Shown here: positions 1,983 to 26,522 of the stretch, piece by piece
How the letters are laid out: every line of letters starts with the position of its first letter
Position numbering within the stretch: the stretch's first letter is position 1
Virus record (IMG/VR): IMGVR_UViG_3300025131_007327
Coordinates: 1 to 26,522 of that record
Length of the DNA stretch: 26,522 nucleotides
From: a virus
Reading direction: 5' to 3' (one strand)
The notes under the pieces: model-generated
Told to the model about the DNA's origin: nothing
Database searches by the model: none
What the model saw: only the letters and a program-made list of their open reading frames with translations
Made by a program: the position numbers and the translations under genes

Positions 1983-2963
1983 CTATTTTGCCCCCCCCTC
2001 TTCTTCACATCTACAGATATTTTGGTGGGCCTTTTTCCAATCTCCTTTGCAGAATACCAACAGGTTCTGGTGTGCTTTGGTCAGCTTCCGTCCCCCCTCG
2101 AAGATTCGTGCGCCCCTCATTGCACACGTCCCTACCGGGGTGACGAGGATTGCCTCGTTGTAGAGTTCCAGACCCGCGCCCCTGAACGAGCCAATCGTTT
2201 GACTGACGAAGTCCCTGCACCACCCTTCCTTGCTCCTAAAGTCTCCCACCACGATTGCAGCAAATCGGTTGTCCTTTAACCTCTCGCAACTCTTTTCCAG
2301 GATTTGGTAATACTCTGAACAGAACTGTGGCCACTCCATCGTCGAGAGGTCAGACGGGTCGTCAGAATAGACCTCGAGGTTTCCGTAGGGTGGGCAGGTG
2401 AAGAGGAAGTCCGCTTGCGGAGCTTCCACCATCGTGTAGCGAGAGTCCCCCCGTTCCCAATGGAGGTCCTGCCACCTAGCGTCGGGACAGATCTTGCGAG
2501 CCTGTTCCCAATTTGCTGCGACTTGTTCTGATCTCAACTCGCTCCCCCAATAGCGACGTCCCAACTTCTCCGCTATGATCCCCCGGACGCTTCCCCCTGC
2601 AAAGGGGTCTACGACCATACCACCTGGTGGGCTCCACCATCTGTAGGCAACCTCTGCCAGCACGGGGTCGAATACGCTCGTCCCTGCCGACTCTGACGCT
2701 TCCTTCTCCTGCTCTCCGTATCCCCCTTTGTTGACCGCGTCGGAGAAGCCGAGGAGATTCCCGGCCCTTCCCACTTCGCTTTCAATACCAAGTGAGAGCC
2801 ACGCGTTCTTCCTTTCCTGCCACGCCCCCTCCCTAGCACTAAGGACGGAGAAGGGCGGCACAAGGAACTTGTTAGCTAGTGGCCCTTGTCCTTCGGCTTT
2901 CATAGGCTCACCGAAGAGGTCGAGCCCCAACGGAGAGAAGTTGTTTGATCCTCCTTCGTTCAC
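1983..2963 (-). CDS. DNA N-4/N-6 (adenine-type) methyltransferase
   Basis: The protein has 326 residues and a beta-class order. An N-terminal phage-typical segment, NKFLVPPFSVLSAREGAWQE (31-50), comes first. Then follow a SAM-binding DPFAGGS (119-125) and the catalytic TCPPY (189-193), a (D/N)PPY variant with cysteine in place of the acidic residue. Such enzymes methylate exocyclic amino groups of adenine or cytosine. The N-terminal segment and the later LEVYSDDPSDLS are ones I associate with phage DNA methylases in replication clusters. The start is a GTG sharing GTGA with the end of the DnaA-like gene. No endonuclease partner is near, so protection or epigenetic control of phage DNA is inferred. 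The cysteine variant leaves base preference open. Confidence 0.85.
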   Translation of the reverse strand: MNEGGSNNFSPLGLDLFGEPMKAEGQGPLANKFLVPPFSVLSAREGAWQERKNAWLSLGIESEVGRAGNLLGFSDAVNKGGYGEQEKEASESAGTSVFDPVLAEVAYRWWSPPGGMVVDPFAGGSVRGIIAEKLGRRYWGSELRSEQVAANWEQARKICPDARWQDLHWERGDSRYTMVEAPQADFLFTCPPYGNLEVYSDDPSDLSTMEWPQFCSEYYQILEKSCERLKDNRFAAIVVGDFRSKEGWCRDFVSQTIGSFRGAGLELYNEAILVTPVGTCAMRGARIFEGGRKLTKAHQNLLVFCKGDWKKAHQNICRCEEEGGAK

Positions 2964-3448
2964 TTGTCCTTCCCCCCATCTACCGGGTAATCACGTCGTC
3001 GCCCCTTGCCTTCTGCCCTTTGGAAATTCTGCCACCTTGCTTCAAGATCTTGAGCGGCTGACCTCATCTCGTTACGAGAGTCCACCGTGGTCTTGGCGTG
3101 GAATACGGAACTGTGGTCCTTTCTTCCGAAGAGCTTCGCAATTTCTGTCGAGCTAGCGTGCAATACCCTGTGGGCCACCACCATCGAAAGAGCCCTAGCC
3201 TCTGCAATCCTCTTGGGCTTCCTTGGCCCTATCAGTTGAGCAACCGTCAGGTTGAACTGTTCGGCACAGAACTTCCTGAACCGTTCGTGGAAGATCATAC
3301 CCCCCTCTCCGGGCTCGGCTTGTTTCTCTTCCCTCCGAGCCAATTCGGCAACGAGGGAGTAGGTGGGGAACTCTTGGAGGAGCACCCTAGTAAGGAGCTC
3401 CTTCTTCAATTCTCTGGTATTCACGTTTGTCATCTGTTTGGTAGTCAT
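2960..3448 (-). CDS. stand-alone DnaA domain IV-like DNA-binding protein
   Basis: The protein has 162 residues. Residues 77-122 match the DnaA C-terminal (domain IV) fold: a helix through ARALSMVVAHRVL, then an HTH ending in LFGRKDHSSVFHAKTTVD. The segment GRKDHSSVFHA corresponds to the DnaA signature usually read as GRDHTTVxHA, which contacts the DnaA box. No AAA+ ATPase (no Walker motifs) is present, so it cannot oligomerise and melt an origin as DnaA does. It sits in the replication block with ATGA coupling to the organiser gene upstream and GTGA to the methylase downstream. It could bind a phage origin, titrate DnaA boxes or regulate transcription. Domain identity is strong; function is inferred. 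Confidence 0.85.
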   Translation of the reverse strand: MTTKQMTNVNTRELKKELLTRVLLQEFPTYSLVAELARREEKQAEPGEGGMIFHERFRKFCAEQFNLTVAQLIGPRKPKRIAEARALSMVVAHRVLHASSTEIAKLFGRKDHSSVFHAKTTVDSRNEMRSAAQDLEARWQNFQRAEGKGRRRDYPVDGGKDK

Positions 3449-4713: not shown

Positions 4714-5018
4714 CTTTGAGGTAAAGCAATTCGAGCAATTTGGACAGCTATGTCGGCAGCCGAGTGGCCCACGCCAATCTGACCTTGCCAGTTGGAGTGC
4801 ATCCCCACTTGAGCTTTCGTGAGCCTTCTCCCCGACTTCGGCTTCTTCGGGTCCTTCAGTTCAAAAAGGAAGTTAAGCCCTCTCCACCCTATCACCAGGT
4901 CGGGGAACCCCTTCCCGGCTCCTGACGCGTCGTAGATGGTTGCGTCTGGCATGGCGTCCCGAAGCTCTTCTACCACCGATCTGTGGTTGTCGTCCGTTCT
5001 CTTGGCGTACCTGCTCAT
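4710..5018 (-). CDS. VRR-NUC domain nuclease
   Basis: The protein has 102 residues, starting at the ATG at 5018 (TGATG overlap with the exonuclease stop; a GTG lies one codon upstream). The VRR-NUC pattern is nearly complete: GKGFPDLVIGW, then FELKDPKK, then GRRLTKAQVGMHSNW. D40, E53 and K55 form a PD-(D/E)xK catalytic set, and the downstream R, Q, H and W positions match the family. The domain stands alone, as is usual in phages, without the FAN1 accessory regions. Known relatives are structure-specific nucleases, some resolving Holliday junctions. Its place next to a RecE-like exonuclease supports a recombination or replication-intermediate role. Confidence 0.88.
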   Translation of the reverse strand: MSRYAKRTDDNHRSVVEELRDAMPDATIYDASGAGKGFPDLVIGWRGLNFLFELKDPKKPKSGRRLTKAQVGMHSNWQGQIGVGHSAADIAVQIARIALPQR

Positions 5019-5968
5019 CACTCAAGACCAGTCAGGAGCTCCGCTGTTGCCTCCTCTGCAAATACGCTAGGGGAGTGCATTGGTAGCGTCGTCTCGGCGT
5101 GGGCAAAGGTAGAGGACCACTGCAAGGACGACCGATCTTTGCAGTCCCGGATCATGCGTGGCAGGTGGAACTGGACATAGGCCCGTCCCGCGTCCAGCGA
5201 CAGGTTGTCGATCTCAGTGACTCGGACTTCGTAGGGGGGTGCGGAGCTCTGCCAAATGATCTTGAACGTCGTTCGATCTTCTCCTGTGGCTTTGTTCCAT
5301 AGGTAGAGATACATGGCGGCTTGAACATGGTAGCCGAGTCTCCCCACCTGCCTTGAGAGTTCATCGTCTGAGTAGAGGTTGACTCCGGTGGTCTTCAGAT
5401 CTACAAGGGATTCACCGTCCCCACAGACAATGTCTATTAGTCCCTTCACGGGAATCCCGGACCTTTCCTTCCCCTTGGTGGTCTCCGGACCCAACGAGTA
5501 TTTGAAACCAGCATAGTGGACCGCTGCCACCTGCGTTTGGGCTCCCTCCAAGAGACCGGCAGAAACCGGGGTCTGGTAGATTTGGGCGACCGCAAGAGCC
5601 GCGTTGGCGTAGTCCTTCTCAGAGACGAGCCTTGCCCCCTCTGCCTCCTTCTCCGCTACCCACTCTCTCGCCTTTTTGGTTCGGGCCACCCCGTCGGAGC
5701 TCAAGTGGGGGTTGGCTTCCTTAGAGACGAACTCTTCGCTCTGAAACTCCGGAGTGAATAACAGGCAGTCTACCAGAGATCCCCACGCCATTGCTGCCGA
5801 GGGTTTTCTTTCCTCGGACAAGGAAGCGAGGAAGCGAGGAGGACCGAGAGAGACGTACCTCTTCAATAGGCTAGTGCTTAGGGGACCGTCTCCCGGGTTC
5901 TTCGGATCGAAAGCCCAAGCGTGGTAGTCTTTGGGCCGAAGTCCGTGGTGTGTGCCGTTGGGGATCAT
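5018..5968 (-). CDS. RecE-like PD-(D/E)xK exonuclease
   Basis: The protein has 316 residues. The N-terminal part has the pattern of phage PDDEXK-like exodeoxyribonucleases: a small segment with SLLKRYVSLGPPRFLASL, then AMAWGSLVDCLLF. The catalytic core follows with VKGLIDIVCGDGESLVDLKTT, in which the aspartates and the DLK are the metal-binding and catalytic positions. A helix with GYHVQAAMYLYLW carries the family's conserved Q/YxY motif. The length suits RecE C-terminal-type or YqaJ-type enzymes. The reaction would be 5'-3' resection of dsDNA ends to expose ssDNA for annealing. The OB-fold-like protein encoded just upstream may be its single-strand partner. It is one base from that gene and overlaps the VRR-NUC start. 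Confidence 0.82.
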   Translation of the reverse strand: MIPNGTHHGLRPKDYHAWAFDPKNPGDGPLSTSLLKRYVSLGPPRFLASLSEERKPSAAMAWGSLVDCLLFTPEFQSEEFVSKEANPHLSSDGVARTKKAREWVAEKEAEGARLVSEKDYANAALAVAQIYQTPVSAGLLEGAQTQVAAVHYAGFKYSLGPETTKGKERSGIPVKGLIDIVCGDGESLVDLKTTGVNLYSDDELSRQVGRLGYHVQAAMYLYLWNKATGEDRTTFKIIWQSSAPPYEVRVTEIDNLSLDAGRAYVQFHLPRMIRDCKDRSSLQWSSTFAHAETTLPMHSPSVFAEEATAELLTGLE

Positions 5969-7080: not shown

Positions 7081-7185
7081 TGGCGGGTAGCATCCCTTAT
7101 TAAATAAGGCACAAAAGCCCTTTTTGCCTCTTTTTGATTGCTTTTTCTAGGCAATCAAAGTGGTCCGTGTTATACTGCCTCCGCT
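7081..7185. promoter_or_regulatory. divergent control region with palindromes and phased T-tracts
   Basis: This 105-base spacer separates leftward genes (from 7080) and rightward genes (from 7186). It holds a 7+1+7 palindrome CCTTATT-A-AATAAGG (7095-7109). It also holds an inverted repeat TTTGATTGC / GCAATCAAA (7133-7141 and 7151-7159, 9-base spacer). Three T5 tracts begin at 7121, 7131 and 7142, spaced 10 and 11 bases, as in intrinsically bent DNA. A rightward sigma70-like promoter ends the region. The leftward promoter is not obvious. Operator sites or an AT-rich replication origin are both possible. Confidence 0.6.
7148..7176 (+). promoter_or_regulatory. sigma70-like promoter for the rightward genes
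   Basis: The -35 TAGGCA (7148-7153) and -10 TATACT (7171-7176) are separated by exactly 17 bases. The predicted start of transcription (about 7183) lies only a few bases before the ATG at 7186, so the first mRNA may be leaderless. The -35 overlaps the right arm of the 9-bp inverted repeat, so a protein bound there would block polymerase. Confidence 0.55.
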
Positions 7186-7719
7186 ATGAAAGAGAAAACC
7201 AACATAATACCGTTCGAAAAGGAAGCGCCCCCGGTGCTTGCTCTTAAAAATGTCAAGGTGCACCTTGGGCTCTCCCAAGAAACCTTTGCCTTCACCGCTT
7301 CCCTTTGGGTCGATGGCAAACGCTATGCTGCCGTCAGTAATGCCGGACATGGCGGCCCTTGTGAGATCCATGAACAGAAAGGAGCACAGAGTGCTGCCGA
7401 ACTGGACCAGAGGATTTCCTCCACCTTCCCTCGGCTCTTTTCTGATCTCTTCCCCAAGGGGAGGGAGCAGGACCTTGACGAGGTCATCTCTGGTTTGGTG
7501 AGTAGGCACCTGCTCGTGAAGGAGATCAAAAGCAACTTCCGGAAGTGCTTCGTCGCTCTGAGTAAGGAGGATGAGAAGATCTACCAGTGGAAGAAAGTCC
7601 GAGGGGAATCCGAGGAGGCTGGAAAGGCTCGGTGGAAGGCGAGCAACGGTGAGAAGTACACCCTTCTGAACGATCTGCCTCTCGAAGAGGTGGTCGCTCT
7701 GCACAAGAAACACGGTTAA
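7186..7719 (+). CDS. conserved-looking phage protein of unknown function
   Basis: The protein has 177 residues. I choose the ATG at 7186 because it follows the promoter -10 element directly and starts a sensible protein; an in-frame upstream ATG at 7138 lies within the control region. The N-terminal half contains LALKNVKVHLGLSQETFAFT, then ASLWVDGKRYAAVSNAGHGG. This beta-rich segment, ending in SNAGHGG, I recall from hypothetical phage and bacterial proteins without a defined function. The C-terminal half is helical and charged (EEAGKARWKASNGEKYTLLN). There are no membrane segments. It is the first rightward gene and hence probably early. Confidence 0.7.
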   Translation: MKEKTNIIPFEKEAPPVLALKNVKVHLGLSQETFAFTASLWVDGKRYAAVSNAGHGGPCEIHEQKGAQSAAELDQRISSTFPRLFSDLFPKGREQDLDEVISGLVSRHLLVKEIKSNFRKCFVALSKEDEKIYQWKKVRGESEEAGKARWKASNGEKYTLLNDLPLEEVVALHKKHG

Positions 7720-8491: not shown

Positions 8492-9256
8492 ATGAACAAA
8501 CTACTTGAAGCTACAGCCTCACTCCGTCGCACCATTACCAATGCGAAGAGGGAGATTGAAACATGGCGGGAGGTTCTCAGGAACGCCCCCGAGGAACTTC
8601 GCTCTGACCCAGCGTGGGTGACCCACATCGAAGGAGAAATGAAATCAGTGAGTAAGAAAATCACCGAAGCGGAAACCGAAATTGACAAGGCAACCGCCTT
8701 TGCCAATGGAGTAGCCGCACAAAGAAGGGGGGAGAGCACTTCCGCTCGTATTTTGATCAAGGAAGCCCAAATTGGTGCCACAGAAATGGCTTGGGGGGCT
8801 TCGAACGACGAGCTTAAATCTCCCGGCTACTCCTACTCTGTTGCTCTTGCTCTTCGGAGTCGATCCGGACCTGACGATCCTCTCAAAATGGCGGTTTACT
8901 CGGGGGTAGCCTCCGAGGCAGTCCACCGAGAAATTCAGGGACGAGCCTTCCTCCACGATGTCGAGTGTGAAGGCACACGGCCGAAACAGCAGGATCAGGT
9001 ACCCCGGATCAAGGAAGAGCCTTCAGAGAAGGAAGTCTACCGCTACTTCTTTTGGCTCGCTCACAGCCGGTTCTTCTACAATCTCTCCGAGGTTGGCCCG
9101 GAGGGGGAAGAAATCCAGGAACTCAAACCAGAACTTGGCCTGGAAGACGTCGAAACTTTGACGTCGAACCACCGGACGTTGGCCCAACAAAACTGGCACC
9201 TCGTGTGGGAACAAAACGTTGAGGATTGGGGGGGCTTCGCATTCCAATGGCAATAA
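8492..9256 (+). CDS. coiled-coil-containing protein of unknown function
   Basis: The protein has 254 residues, starting at the ATG at 8492. An earlier in-frame start would lie upstream of the terminator. Residues 1-70 are a long charged helix pair (LRRTITNAKREIETWREVL, then IEGEMKSVSKKITEAETEID), likely a coiled coil. The rest is mixed alpha/beta, with YRYFFWLAHSRFFYNLSEVG and a C-terminal LVWEQNVEDWGGFAF. No catalytic motif is seen. It follows the strong terminator, so it depends on read-through or its own promoter, which I could not identify. It overlaps the next gene by 10 bases. Confidence 0.7.
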   Translation: MNKLLEATASLRRTITNAKREIETWREVLRNAPEELRSDPAWVTHIEGEMKSVSKKITEAETEIDKATAFANGVAAQRRGESTSARILIKEAQIGATEMAWGASNDELKSPGYSYSVALALRSRSGPDDPLKMAVYSGVASEAVHREIQGRAFLHDVECEGTRPKQQDQVPRIKEEPSEKEVYRYFFWLAHSRFFYNLSEVGPEGEEIQELKPELGLEDVETLTSNHRTLAQQNWHLVWEQNVEDWGGFAFQWQ

Positions 9257-9438
9257 ATACGAACCAACCGAATTGGGGGGGAGCACGGCCAGGTTCCGGA
9301 CGACCTCGGAAACCCGAAGCGGAGAAGCGCGTCGTGAAGGGCGTTAGCCTTTCCCCGGAAGCGTGGGCCAAACTGGAAAAGGCAAGAGGGGGGCTCTCTC
9401 GGAGCTCCTTCCTGAACCATTTGATCCTCTCCCTTTAG
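9247..9438 (+). CDS. small AT-hook/ribbon-helix-helix-like DNA-binding protein
   Basis: The protein has 63 residues, starting at the ATG at 9247, which overlaps the preceding stop by 10 bases. The N-terminus GGARPGSGRPRKPEAEK carries the GARPGSGRP signature typical of small phage and plasmid DNA-binding proteins, with an AT-hook-like GRPRK. VVKGVSLSPEAWAKLEKARG and SRSSFLNHLILSL follow; strand, helix, helix fits an RHH dimer. Its stop codon abuts the conserved upstream element of the first RNA promoter (from 9438). A regulator of the two RNA cassettes is an attractive but untested idea. Confidence 0.68.
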   Translation: MAINTNQPNWGGARPGSGRPRKPEAEKRVVKGVSLSPEAWAKLEKARGGLSRSSFLNHLILSL

Positions 9439-9497
9439 GGAAAATCGAATGAACAACCCGGGATTATCTTGACGGGGGGTCCAGTTTCAGCTAGTAT
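9438..9497 (+). promoter_or_regulatory. promoter of RNA cassette 1 with conserved upstream element
   Basis: The -35 TTGACG (9469-9474), a 17-base spacer and -10 TAGTAT (9492-9497) predict a start near 9504. The 34 bases 9438-9471 recur at 9924-9957 with only two differences, ending in ATTATCTTG. This conservation extends far upstream of the -35, so it probably marks an activator or alpha-CTD site. The spacer sequence itself is not conserved. Confidence 0.78.
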
Positions 9498-9538
9498 GTA
9501 ACTGTTGAGAGGGGGAACCCGATCAACAGCTCCCCGGG

Positions 9539-9622
9539 AAAGATGGACTTCACTGATGATCTTTCTCGACCTAGGAAGGGAAAGGTGGACTTCACTGATG
9601 ATCTTTCTCGACCTAGGAAGGG
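9539..9622 (+). repeat. 42-bp tandem duplication within RNA 1
   Basis: Copies 9539-9580 and 9581-9622 are identical at 41 of 42 positions. Each can form a 9-bp hairpin between GGGAAAG(A/G)U and AUCUUUCUC. The single difference (A to G at the fifth base of the unit) changes an A-U pair to G-U, so the stem is kept. Each copy ends with CCTAGG plus AAGGG. Confidence 0.9.
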
Positions 9623-9872
9623 GGCAAGGAGCCCCCGGAGGGGGGTGCAAAGGCAGACTTCGGGCGCAACTCCCGCAAAACTAGATAGGGTCACAAAGTC
9701 TTGTAGCACCAAAAACCTCCGGGGGGACTCCGAGAGCTCCCGCTGGTGGGCGCAATCCATGACCAGCAAAAGTTGAGAGGAGGAGCCACCTCCGAGAGAT
9801 CACCGGCCCTTTGAGGGAGGTGTGAAACCCGGAACAGGAGCCGCTTCCGAAGAGCGTCAGCTGACTCTCAAC

Positions 9873-9907
9873 GCGTGCCGAGCCTCGGAGCTCGGCACGC
9901 TTTGTTT
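9873..9907 (+). terminator. intrinsic terminator of RNA 1
   Basis: The 11-bp stem GCGTGCCGAGC (9873-9883) / GCTCGGCACGC (9890-9900) has loop CTCGGA and is followed by TTTGTTT. It begins immediately after the CTCTCAAC closing strand. Confidence 0.9.
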
Positions 9908-9923
9908 GCCCCTTTGGAACCCG

Positions 9924-9983
9924 GGGAAAATCGCATGAACAAGCCGGGATTATCTTGGCAAGGGGGCTACTTTCCTTTAGTAT
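9924..9983 (+). promoter_or_regulatory. promoter of RNA cassette 2 with conserved upstream element
   Basis: The -35 TTGGCA (9955-9960), a 17-base spacer and -10 TAGTAT (9978-9983) predict a start near 9990. The 9924-9957 block matches 9438-9471 at 32 of 34 positions, exactly 486 bases apart, so the whole promoter was duplicated and kept. Confidence 0.78.
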
Positions 9984-9989
9984 GTATGT

Positions 9990-10195
9990 GTTGATAGGAA
10001 GAGCGGCTTCCGGGCCACCACCCTCCTTGAAACGAGTTTGGCTTGAGTGCTTCAAGCAAGTGAAGACGCCAAACCGAGTTCAGAACCGCCTATGCAAGCG
10101 GAAGGGGGGAGTGAGCCGGGTCTAACCGCCCTCCGTGGGGGCACCCACCGCGTATCAATAACGGGCCGATCTCCGGAGATCGGCTCGTTCTGTTT
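9990..10195 (+). ncRNA. structured non-coding RNA 2 (about 206 nt), paralogue of RNA 1
   Basis: Promoter and overall design match RNA 1, but the body is half as long and largely different in sequence. The 5' end GTTGATA (9990-9996) pairs with TATCAAT (10153-10159), which lies just before the terminator. Relative to RNA 1 the sixth pair is U-A instead of G-C, a compensatory change. Internal hairpins are GGAAG/CTTCC (9997-10001, 10007-10011), GTTTGGC/GCCAAAC (10036-10042, 10068-10074) enclosing CTTGA/TCAAG (10042-10046, 10052-10056), CCGC/GCGG (10086-10089, 10098-10101) and GTGGG/CCCAC (10135-10139, 10144-10148). No open frame with a sensible start fills it. The size and closed rod-like design recall 6S RNA or phage packaging RNA only superficially. 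Function unknown. Confidence 0.65.
10161..10195 (+). terminator. terminator of RNA 2, possibly bidirectional
   Basis: A 14-bp stem pairs ACGGGCCGATCTCC (10161-10174) with GGAGATCGGCTCGT (10175-10188), with one G-U pair and a CCGG turn. TTCTGTTT follows. The minus-strand late genes end at 10202, so the same hairpin may also stop leftward transcription, though the minus-side T-tract is poor. Confidence 0.8.
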
Positions 10196-10201
10196 GCACA
10201 T

Positions 10202-10441
10202 TTATTGCCTAGAATTCTCTAGGCTTTTTTTTAGCTCTTGGACGTCCTCTCGTAGAAACCTGAGTTCGGCTTTTATTTCAATCAGTTCGTCCCTCTGCTG
10301 ACGCATCCCATCGTGGTAGGCCAACTGCAGGTGGTTCCCTAACCTCTCCTCTAAACGAACCCCCCAAGCTACACCCCCGGCTGCCACAACGAGAATAGGC
10401 CAGTTCCGAAGAACCCACCCGACTCTCTCCTCTCCGCTCAT
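10202..10441 (-). CDS. single-span coiled-coil protein, inner-membrane spanin or holin candidate
   Basis: The protein has 79 residues. The ATG at 10441 shares ATGA with the preceding gene; an upstream start at 10630 would run through that gene in another frame and give an arginine-rich, implausible extension. The N-terminus has one membrane span (NWPILVVAAGGVAWGV, about 12-27). A long charged helix follows (QQRDELIEIKAELRFLREDV, then ELKKSLEN), probably a coiled coil. A single N-terminal span plus periplasmic coiled coil is the usual i-spanin layout, and a small lipoprotein is encoded nearby. It is the last gene of the late operon. Confidence 0.6.
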   Translation of the reverse strand: MSGEERVGWVLRNWPILVVAAGGVAWGVRLEERLGNHLQLAYHDGMRQQRDELIEIKAELRFLREDVQELKKSLENSRQ

Positions 10442-10650
10442 CTCACCCCGTGATCCTGAGAGCTCTTGTTGCCATCCCGGGCGGCTCCTCCGAGGAGGAC
10501 CGGCCCAATCGCTGACATAAGGTATCCAGCCCAAAGGAGCCAAGGGGGAGCGACCAGGTCGAGTGCGACATTTGCGCCCACGACGGCTGCCCCTATAGCG
10601 GAGAACAGCCCTCCGACGGTGGTTTTCCAACTGATTCTTGCGTTTTTCAT
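10438..10650 (-). CDS. holin-like membrane protein
   Basis: The protein has 70 residues, starting at the ATG at 10650, which shares ATGA with the preceding micro-gene. Two hydrophobic, small-residue-rich spans are visible: VGGLFSAIGAAVVGANVAL and WLLWAGYLMSAIGPVLLGG. A short polar tail follows (AARDGNKSSQDHGVR). The MKNARISWKTTVGG start and the LGGAARD ending are typical of small phage holin-like proteins. Such proteins form membrane lesions that release the endolysin. The endolysin itself is at the other end of the window, so the assignment rests on topology and on spanin-like neighbours. Confidence 0.62.
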   Translation of the reverse strand: MKNARISWKTTVGGLFSAIGAAVVGANVALDLVAPPWLLWAGYLMSAIGPVLLGGAARDGNKSSQDHGVR

Positions 10651-16456: not shown

Positions 16457-18184
16457 CTATTGGAGAACTCCGTTTAGTGTTATGGTCCAAGCCGGGGAGC
16501 AGGCTTTCAGCGTGGTCACCGCAGAGGTAATGTCAGGCGTCCCCGTGCCTGTGTCGTAGTCGATTGTTATATCTGGCCCACTTGCAGGTGCATCGACGCC
16601 AGATGTGGCTATAGAGTTCAGGATGTTCTCCACGGAGGTTGCGGTGAGCGACGAGCAGCCGTCCCATGCTTTGTAGAAGCAATCATTGGAGGGTGTTCCG
16701 GGAGACCAATAATCGAACAGGTTAGCGGGAAAATCTTCGAGTGAAGCGCACAGGTACCAGCAGTAATAGAAAGTGGTCCCGCTCGATAGGTCCAGTGTGC
16801 CGGGAAAACTTTCGAGTGAAGTGCAAGCATACCAACTGCCACTAAAATCTGTCCCGCTGGATAAGTCGAGCGTGCCGGGAAATTCGGTCAGTGGAGTGCC
16901 CCCCCAACTGTAACTGAAATTTGTTCCGCTGGATAAGTCGAGCGTGCCGGGAAATTCGGCAAGTGAAGCGCATAGATACCAGCAGGCGTAGAAATCTGTC
17001 CCGCTCGATAAGACCAAAGCGGGAAAACTTTCGAGTGAACTGCACGACCGCCAGCAGGAACTGAACGATGTGCTGCTTGAGAGGTCCAAAGCGGGAAATT
17101 CGGTTAGTGAAATGCAATTACGCCAGCAGGAAGTGAAATTTGTCCCGCTAGATGCGTCAATCTTGGGAAAATCTTCGAGTGAATAGCAATTATACCAGCA
17201 GGTACTGAAATTTGTCACCCCACTGAAATCCAACGCAGCAAACTTCGGGGCAACTAAATCGGTTCTATCGGCCCAGTATTGGTAAAGACTCCCAGTCGGA
17301 TTCCTCGTCGCGCCCGTGTTCTCTTCCAACCAACGGATCACAGACCCGACTTCCGTATTCGATACGGAGGAAGGAAACAGTGCATAGGCGTAGAGTCCTA
17401 GCCCTTGGAAGTAACCCGTCTCATTCCCTAGTGCGGTGATAATATCAACCGAGTCCGCGTCCACTTCGTAGGCAAAAATGCCGTTGCTAGTTGCAGTCAC
17501 AAGGATTCCCGCTTGAGCGACTGCCGTTGCACTGAAGTCTAGTTGCTTGTCGACCGCGTCAAATTGGAGGAAGCCCCCCGAAGCGTCGTGCGCTGGCTGT
17601 TCTTCTGCCGTAGTTTGCACCAAGTCTCTGACCAGTTGGTTTGACTTTCCAGGAGCTTGCGTCCATTTTTCGACGTCCCCCCCCTCGGTGGTGATTCCTT
17701 GGGTTCCGTAATACAGGAGGTAGGGGTTCAAGTCTTTGGGATTAATCAAGTAGGGGACCATGTCTGGGTCAGAGATCTCCGCACACTTGATCTCCAACGC
17801 AAACGTCGTCTGCCGGTAGCCGTCCACCGGCTCCGTCACCCCCTGCCCTCCGGTGGAGTCGTTGACTTGCATCACGGTCCCAAGGAAGCCCTTCAACGCG
17901 GCAGCATCCCCCACCAGGTCCGTCACGGCTTGCGTGATTTGCCGGTGAGTGGTGGCAGATTCGTCCGCTTCCGGAATTGTCATTACCACCACCGAGATTG
18001 GGACGGTGTATTGCCCCCGGATCACCTCGTTCTCTTCGGGATCTCCTGCCTCCGTGACGATGCACGCCGGGTAGGAGAGATCCCCACCAAAGTCTCGTTC
18101 GAAGAACGTCACGGACGATAACTCCGGGCGTCCTGACCCTTTCAGAAAGTCGGAGACTCCCGCTACTGTAATGTCGGTGATCAC
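16457..18184 (-). CDS. tail terminator-like domain fused to LamG-like and DUF285/BspA-like repeat domains
   Basis: The protein has 575 residues and a GTG start overlapping the preceding gene as GTGA. Residues 1-137 look like a tail terminator/completion domain: YPACIVTEAGDP, then ISVVVMTIPEADESATTHRQ, AVTDLVGDAAALKGFL and DGYRQTTFALEIKC. Residues 141-300 have a concanavalin-like pattern (LVRDLVQTTAEEQPAHDASG, then FLQFDAVDKQLDFS). Residues 319-489 hold seven repeats of about 24 residues. The C-terminus has the SLTATSVENILNSIA segment usual after such repeats. The terminator normally is a ~130-residue protein on its own. The fusion could place an adhesive rod near the head-tail junction or along the tail. 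Domain boundaries are judged by eye. Confidence 0.72.
   Translation of the reverse strand: MITDITVAGVSDFLKGSGRPELSSVTFFERDFGGDLSYPACIVTEAGDPEENEVIRGQYTVPISVVVMTIPEADESATTHRQITQAVTDLVGDAAALKGFLGTVMQVNDSTGGQGVTEPVDGYRQTTFALEIKCAEISDPDMVPYLINPKDLNPYLLYYGTQGITTEGGDVEKWTQAPGKSNQLVRDLVQTTAEEQPAHDASGGFLQFDAVDKQLDFSATAVAQAGILVTATSNGIFAYEVDADSVDIITALGNETGYFQGLGLYAYALFPSSVSNTEVGSVIRWLEENTGATRNPTGSLYQYWADRTDLVAPKFAALDFSGVTNFSTCWYNCYSLEDFPKIDASSGTNFTSCWRNCISLTEFPALDLSSSTSFSSCWRSCSSLESFPALVLSSGTDFYACWYLCASLAEFPGTLDLSSGTNFSYSWGGTPLTEFPGTLDLSSGTDFSGSWYACTSLESFPGTLDLSSGTTFYYCWYLCASLEDFPANLFDYWSPGTPSNDCFYKAWDGCSSLTATSVENILNSIATSGVDAPASGPDITIDYDTGTGTPDITSAVTTLKACSPAWTITLNGVLQ
16718..17230 (-). repeat. seven DUF285/BspA-like repeat units encoded in the fusion gene
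   Basis: Each unit of about 24 residues follows the pattern LSSGTxFxxCWxxCxSLxxFPxLD; for example STSFSSCWRSCSSLESFPAL and GTNFTSCWRNCISLTEFPAL. One unit is shorter (SYSWGGTPLTEFPGTLD). The nucleotide units are similar but diverged, so this is not a fresh duplication. Confidence 0.85.
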
Positions 18185-23331: not shown

Positions 23332-23537
23332 CTAAAATCGACCCTAGTGCCGCGTCTCGAAAATAGTCAAAGCAAAGAGTTGAAGAACCTTCCTTTTTCC
23401 CAACCTGCAAAACTGAGCCAGACGGCCGTCTTCTCTGGTTAGCTATAAATGGTCCCGGGGGGGGAAGAAGGGCGTCGGAGAGGGGAATACCCCGCCCCCA
23501 CGCCCCTGCCCGTTCCGTCTATCGCATGTGTGAAGGC
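23332..23537. other. 206-base stretch without a gene, palindrome-rich
   Basis: I see no convincing coding frame here. It contains the perfect palindrome GACGGCCGTC (23421-23430). It also contains a nested hairpin GGGCGT/ACGCCC (23470-23475, 23500-23505) around GGGG-AATA-CCCC (23482-23493), and CCAGA/TCTGG flanking the first palindrome. No promoter could be assigned. Such structure inside a head-gene operon could be an RNA element or a relic of a lost gene. Confidence 0.4.
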
Positions 23538-23798
23538 TTAACTTGTGCTTGTATAGTAGTCTACCGAAGGTGCCGGTGTTTTGTTCCCCTTGCTTTCTCC
23601 ATCGAAAGAACAGAGAATTCTGACGCCTTCTTCCTCTCTAAAGTAAACTGCAGCCTCACCATACAACGGGGGGACTAAGCAAGGGCGGTACGTGCTCGGA
23701 GAGGGAGAGGGCTTTACTCCCTCTCTCCTTTCACGAATTACGCGTGTCGGCTCATTGCCCCAAGGAGAGAGGGTTTCAAGTTGGGAAGACTCTCCAAA
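23538..23798 (-). CDS. coding-like frame without a standard start between terL and the gpW-like gene
   Basis: One minus-strand frame is open for 87 codons, from just after a stop within terL to TAA (23540-23538), and reads like a protein. Segments include GNEPTRVIRERREGVKPSPS, TYRPCLVPPLYGEAAVYFRE and EEGVRILCSFDGESKGNKTP. No ATG or GTG occurs in frame. A TTG at 23666 would give 42 residues and an ATT at 23738 would give 66. Relative to terL it lies in the +1 frame. It may use a rare start, be fused to the terminase by shift, or be a gene that lost its start. The stretch also includes a 9-bp hairpin GAGAGGGAG/CTCCCTCTC (23699-23707, 23717-23725). Confidence 0.4.
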   Translation of the reverse strand, partial: FGESSQLETLSPWGNEPTRVIRERREGVKPSPSPSTYRPCLVPPLYGEAAVYFREEEGVRILCSFDGESKGNKTPAPSVDYYTSTS

Positions 23799-26457: not shown

Positions 26458-26522
26458 TGGTTCGTTGCTTAATAGCTATTGATATTTTCGCAAACTTTGC
26501 AAAAAAAGCCCGAAGATGCCCT
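26458..26522. other. window end: possible packaging site region with two palindromes and an 8-bp terminal repeat
   Basis: This non-coding end lies directly upstream of the terminase operon, where cos sites occur. It holds the perfect palindrome AATAGCTATT (26471-26480) and GCAAA-C-TTTGC (26490-26500), then GATGCCCT (26515-26522), identical to bases 1-8. Palindromes of this kind could bind the small terminase. A filled-in cohesive end or a circular assembly overlap would explain the repeat. Confidence 0.45.

Follow-up and report, generated by a model that had tools for sequence, protein, structure and literature searches.

In this study we describe two tandem units, at 9438-9910 and 9924-10197, which are copies of one cassette in an uncultured phage. 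The window, that is the whole stretch of DNA analysed, is an entire IMG/VR virus record of 26,522 bases. Judging from the sequence, we consider it very probable that the units are two real non-coding RNA genes (RNA1 and RNA2), for which transcription is predicted. It seems fairly likely, on the same grounds, that they represent two independent moron-type RNA genes, formed from one tandem-duplicated cassette and residing in an accessory insertion site. Morons are accessory units with their own promoter and terminator and are usually protein genes.

Layout and promoters of the two cassettes

The features of the locus are listed below; the lengths of RNA1 and RNA2 assume that transcription begins (+1) at 9504 and 9990.

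9247..9438, + strand: small gene of 63 aa, its stop codon lying right against the block; resembles a ribbon-helix-helix protein by eye only
9438..9471, + strand: upstream control block of unit 1, GGGAAAATCGAATGAACAACCCGGGATTATCTTG; overlaps the -35 element
9469..9497, + strand: predicted RNA1 promoter, TTGACG-17-TAGTAT, sigma70-like by consensus match
9504..9910, + strand: RNA1, predicted structured non-coding RNA, ~404-407 nt (fold z, low coding score)
9504..9510, + strand: 5' strand of closing stem P1 in RNA1; begins at the predicted +1; partner 9866-9872
9536..9619, + strand: two tandem 42-nt repeats in RNA1, each a predicted hairpin with the same 14-nt loop, GGACUUCACUGAUG (repeat search, fold)
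9772..9872, + strand: RNA1 3' domain, opening with a second GUUGAGAGG (at 9772); weak match to the RNA2 model
9866..9872, + strand: 3' strand of P1 in RNA1; directly abuts the terminator
9873..9904, + strand: RNA1 intrinsic terminator, 11-bp stem, TTTGTTT tail
9924..9957, + strand: upstream control block of unit 2 (repeat search, identity by parts)
9955..9983, + strand: predicted RNA2 promoter, TTGGCA-17-TAGTAT, sigma70-like by consensus match
9990..10197, + strand: RNA2, predicted structured non-coding RNA, ~206-208 nt (fold z, P1 ensemble pairing)
9990..9996, + strand: 5' strand of P1 in RNA2; partner 10153-10159
10153..10159, + strand: 3' strand of P1 in RNA2; partner 9990..9996
10160..10196, + strand: RNA2 intrinsic terminator; three double changes against the RNA1 terminator, pairing kept

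Identity between the two units is unevenly distributed. The 34-bp upstream block (9438-9471 against 9924-9957) is identical at 32/34 positions with a spacing of 486, as an earlier sequence-only reading of this DNA had claimed, and an unbiased repeat search extended it to a 75-nt repeat (9438-9512 against 9924-9998, 81%). The -10 elements are identical (6/6), the first nine transcribed bases of RNA1 and RNA2 agree in 8/9, and the terminators are 76% identical over 42 nt (9874-9915 against 10162-10203, spacing 288). In contrast, only 11 of the 20 spacer bases between block and -10 are alike, the identity over the first 60 body bases (27%) is that of chance, and a gapped alignment of the RNA1 and RNA2 bodies was no better than shuffles. 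The conserved stretches are therefore the ones on which a promoter, its upstream control site, the beginning of an RNA and a terminator would depend. The proposal of a duplication with diverged bodies was borne out for promoter, start and terminator, but a common origin of the two bodies could not be demonstrated; hence they may equally well have come about by replacement or insertion.

Between 8500 and 11500 only two sigma70-like sites occur on the + strand, and both are the cassette promoters (1.1 +/- 1.0 sites in shuffles, both strands counted). Their -35 elements match in 5/6 and 4/6 positions, the reference being the sigma70 consensus, which may not be that of the host. The two promoter-RNA-terminator units are thus confirmed at the level of sequence, and the lengths of about 404 and 206 nt given in the sequence-only reading are right if the starts are as assumed here. 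Both terminators, described there as strong, are present (9873-9900 and 10160-10189), but the second has a weaker T-run (TTCTGTTTG) and is missing from the list of the terminator tool. Other occurrences of the block core in the window all have at least 2 mismatches. In addition, CTCGGAGCTC is found at 9398-9407, in the 3' end of gene 9226-9438, and at 9884-9893, in the RNA1 terminator, again with a spacing of 486 bases, as if the duplication had extended further upstream.

Closing stem, predicted folds and coding potential

In both units the closing stem P1 joins the two ends of the RNA: the first 7-8 bases, counted from the predicted start, pair with those immediately preceding the terminator. 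Pair 6 is G-C in RNA1 and U-A in RNA2, a double compensatory change, and pair 1 changes on one side from G-C to G-U; pairing is kept in both cases. Three terminator pairs are likewise altered on both sides between the units and all are still paired. These four double-sided changes with retained pairing, counted over P1 and terminator, support structure at the RNA level. Sliding the P1 partner by 1-2 positions leaves only 1-4 of 7 pairs, and random 7-bp pairing has a frequency of 0.0015. The ensemble probabilities of P1 are 0.70-0.99 in RNA2, whose predicted fold is closed by P1 but branched, and ~0.44-0.48 in RNA1, where a local hairpin competes; with P1 forced, the minimum free energy of RNA1 is at most 0.5 kcal/mol from that of the free fold. 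The bodies are without covariation because there are only two copies, in one genome.

This pattern also bears on the idea that the region is a DNA element, such as a replication, packaging or integration site, with a promoter-like look. Such a site might account for the direct repeats and palindromes, which lie where there are no genes, and in one relative, L007, the same site contains an attP-like tRNA piece; but it would not need base-pair-preserving conservation at the -10, the start, P1 and the terminator, there are two repeats only, and no tRNA genes were found in the window. We consider a DNA element very unlikely.

Both RNAs are predicted to fold with z scores of -3.8 (RNA1) and -3.3 (RNA2) when the terminators are included, and of -3.2 and -2.6 against dinucleotide shuffles when they are not; the part 9504-9770 of RNA1 reaches -4.8. 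Since 170-nt windows across the genome have a mean z of -0.5 (sd 1.4), RNA1 stands out, whereas RNA2 does so only to a moderate degree. The reverse complements of both bodies fold about equally well, and with RNA2 unexceptional among genome windows, fold stability alone is insufficient for a claim of non-coding RNA.

Besides P1 with its compensatory changes, two further features go beyond the sequence-only reading: the 42-nt tandem repeat at 9536-9619 and the internal GUUGAGAGG at 9772. The two 42-nt repeats differ once, by an A to G change that turns an A-U pair into G-U. A hammerhead ribozyme, considered for the CUGAUGA in this repeat, was rejected, with no room between the repeats for stems I and III and no Rfam hammerhead match. 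The RNA1 segment 9772-9872 is matched weakly, from end to end, by an RNA2 model (E 0.032 in an unfiltered search of 491 bases), which suggests, without proving it, that RNA1 might be an RNA2-like unit enlarged on its 5' side.

Codon use argues against coding. The open frame 9543-9776 in RNA1 scores -0.8 per 100 codons, whereas known genes reach 7.8-24.2; the remaining frames score lower still, and the tested open frames of the cassette stretch on both strands all fall under the known-gene range. That the stretch holds small protein or peptide genes could be argued from the 42-nt repeat, which is a multiple of three and lies inside this frame; but besides the codon scores no convincing ribosome site was seen by eye and RNA2 is without a comparable frame, making this reading extremely unlikely. 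The low coding score, the covariation in P1 and terminator, the conservation pattern and the lack of an Rfam match together support the earlier proposal of two structured non-coding RNAs.

Neighbouring genes and the insertion site

The large terminase of the phage matches phrog_15, the portal is of the lambda family, and genes for a Clp-type protease and an M15 peptidase (endolysin-like) are present; the nearest isolated phages share only ~25% terminase identity. The window ends (1-8 and 26515-26522) share an 8-base direct repeat, GATGCCCT, and the gene order is continuous when they are joined; possibly this is a complete genome, circularly permuted. The sequence-only reading had placed the cassettes in the only large gene-free stretch of the genome. 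The region is indeed ORF-poor, but the claim is slightly overstated: there is a second ORF-poor stretch of ~440 nt (23332-23775), flanked by a small gene and the terminase gene and with a fold z of -0.6, no better than shuffles.

Nearly all genes run leftward, except for a rightward block at ~7.1-9.4 kb with the cassettes at its end. RNA1 and RNA2 also run rightward and converge on the leftward lysis and structural genes, and the next gene past RNA2 is the convergent 10202-10450. A promoter, a short RNA and a terminator beside a lysis region might recall terminated leaders or attenuators of the lambda 6S/pR' type, in which read-through expresses something downstream, and L007 has an integrase module at the same place. 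However, read-through of the converging RNAs would give only antisense RNA, and one more terminator-like stem follows RNA2 at 10207-10224. We regard such leaders as highly improbable.

Relatives were fetched with two baits, the lysis gene and the ssb-like gene, and the site was readable in four of them (L004, L005, L007 and L020). In the first three the bait genes enclose differing contents: only small genes (~1 kb) in L004, other small genes in L005, and an integrase, an excisionase-like gene and an attP-like tRNA-Met piece in L007. In L020, other small genes lie beside the ssb-like gene. As all four readable relatives carry other genes there, the locus is an accessory insertion site. The partial tRNA-Met-like sequence of L007 (11650-11720), beside the integrase gene and where the window has the RNA cassettes, is probably an attP site. 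The phage lineage has temperate members.

For the five + strand genes in the insert of the window, the fetched relatives contain no homologue (0/5), and only gene 7138-7719 of this rightward insert was seen to have distant relatives in cultured phages. The small upstream gene 9226-9438 gave no family match at the cut-off, this gene and 8492-9256 used as baits gave no matches in IMG/VR, and no prophage relative was found among GTDB genomes by protein profile. The block hoped for in related phages was not found either. Exact promoter and block patterns in IMG/VR returned nothing beyond one chance match (L006), rejected as lying inside coding sequence of an AT-rich phage, and the block pattern was absent from GTDB genomes; 20 whole related viral records, with partly incomplete contigs, gave chance DNA matches only and no match to the RNA2 model. 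The combination of promoter, closing stem and adjacent terminator is rare, with 4 hits in 0.997 Mb of other phage sequence (both strands summed), and the same scan in the window finds RNA1 only, the tail of the RNA2 terminator being below the T cut-off.

The cassettes therefore resemble morons in several respects. Consensus matches predict an own promoter and terminator for both copies, and the cassettes are self-contained units, absent from close relatives, at a variable site that is spaced or filled differently in L004, L005 and L007 and, on the ssb-like side, in L020. They differ in that the product is apparently RNA and that there are two tandem copies. The RNA pair looks like a newly acquired accessory cassette, and a moron or accessory role of RNA1 and RNA2 appears reasonably probable.

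Known phage RNAs and possible roles

The sequence-only reading found no counterpart among known RNAs, and our searches agree with it. Covariance models of Rfam 15 gave 0 matches in the window at the gathering threshold (GOLLD, ROOL, OLE, 6S, RNase P, tmRNA and hammerhead included), cmscan at E<=10 returned chance-level matches only, and blastn of the region against INPHARED phages and PLSDB plasmids found none. Individual candidates were rejected as well. A CsrA sponge of the CsrB/RsmZ type should be rich in GGA, and there was no excess over dinucleotide shuffles (15 against 15.5 expected in RNA1, 3 against 4.3 in RNA2). For 6S RNA, a closed rod with a central bubble, there was no Rfam match at E<=10 and RNA2 is branched. 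A ToxI type III antitoxin would be a repeat array upstream of ToxN; here only two repeats are embedded in a longer RNA, and no toxin family was found among the neighbour genes.

The closest systems in kind are GOLLD, ROOL and the lysis-cluster RNA of ICP1, and in genome placement the morons. GOLLD and ROOL are highly structured RNAs of phages and prophages whose function is unknown (PMC12286853). RNA1 and RNA2 are likewise phage-encoded and predicted to be highly structured, but GOLLD and ROOL are considerably larger (many GOLLD RNAs over 800 nt) and often lie near tRNA islands, which the window does not have, and their covariance models had no cmscan match in the window even at E 10. ICP1 has an ~800-nt non-coding RNA at the start of its lysis cluster, a predicted transcript from an ORF-less stretch (PMC7567579). 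The position in an ORF-less stretch beside the lysis cluster is shared, whereas the ICP1 RNA is single, longer and from an unrelated phage; we set it apart by its description, and the INPHARED collection held no match. Prophage accessory non-coding RNAs also include STnc6030 of BTP1 and IsrJ of Gifsy-1 (PMC7067206). They too are phage-borne, with an accessory role like the one proposed here, but STnc6030 is antisense to late genes while RNA1 and RNA2 are antisense to no gene, and no sequence relation is known. What is unusual here is the pair, one frame with two different bodies.

As base-pairing regulators of the antisense or sRNA type, acting on phage or host mRNAs like the P4 and P1 immunity-type RNAs, RNA1 and RNA2 would not be without precedent, since phage and satellite non-coding RNAs in such a role exist (PMC7567579). 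A pairing of -42.1 kcal/mol is possible between RNA1 9741-9788 and the start region of gene 5018-5968, and none of 60 shuffled probes did as well. Among the 60-nt windows of the whole genome, however, it comes only in about eleventh place, and since eight probes were tried it is not significant. No phage translation start matched better than the genome background, matches of the repeated 14-nt loop to the phage stayed at chance level, and the predicted folds, being compact, leave few bases unpaired; the tests covered phage messages. Hence base pairing seems to us rather unlikely, and RNA1 and RNA2 more likely act in trans via their structure.

A possible course of events for the favoured moron-type genes would begin with a tandem duplication of control block, sigma70 promoter, RNA and intrinsic terminator that gave two genes. 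A phage or host regulator might bind the 34-bp block and switch both RNAs on together, each RNA would fold into a closed, P1-sealed structure, and the folded RNAs could then present structured sites to a protein in trans, with RNA1 displaying the same 14-nt loop twice. Example roles would be a decoy against host defence, or host control; as a specific mechanism, a protein-binding decoy is a tentative suggestion only. It is conceivable, if unlikely, that the locus exemplifies a new class of phage RNA, a modular 'RNA moron' slot: control block, closing stem and terminator would be constant and the structured bodies exchangeable, and a single regulator might thereby drive different protein-binding RNAs for anti-defence or host takeover. 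Should the bodies be exchangeable within a single control frame, the mobile parts of phage accessory regions would include RNA genes as well as proteins. Annotation by protein genes and Rfam misses the whole locus. A small twin cassette with defined ends that is absent in sister phages would offer an easy system for asking what structured RNAs of phages do, as it can be removed, exchanged or expressed by itself.

Elsewhere in the window, 16457-18184 encodes a protein with at least 6 degenerate 24-residue repeats (72-nt period), BspA/leucine-rich-like by eye and with no Pfam match. A small protein at 2960-3448 has the DnaA C-terminal DNA-binding domain (Bac_DnaA_C, E 4e-15) and adjoins an N6/N4 DNA methylase gene. 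In the distant relative L024, an abiF RNA (RF03085) is located at 2217-2253 next to three tRNA genes.
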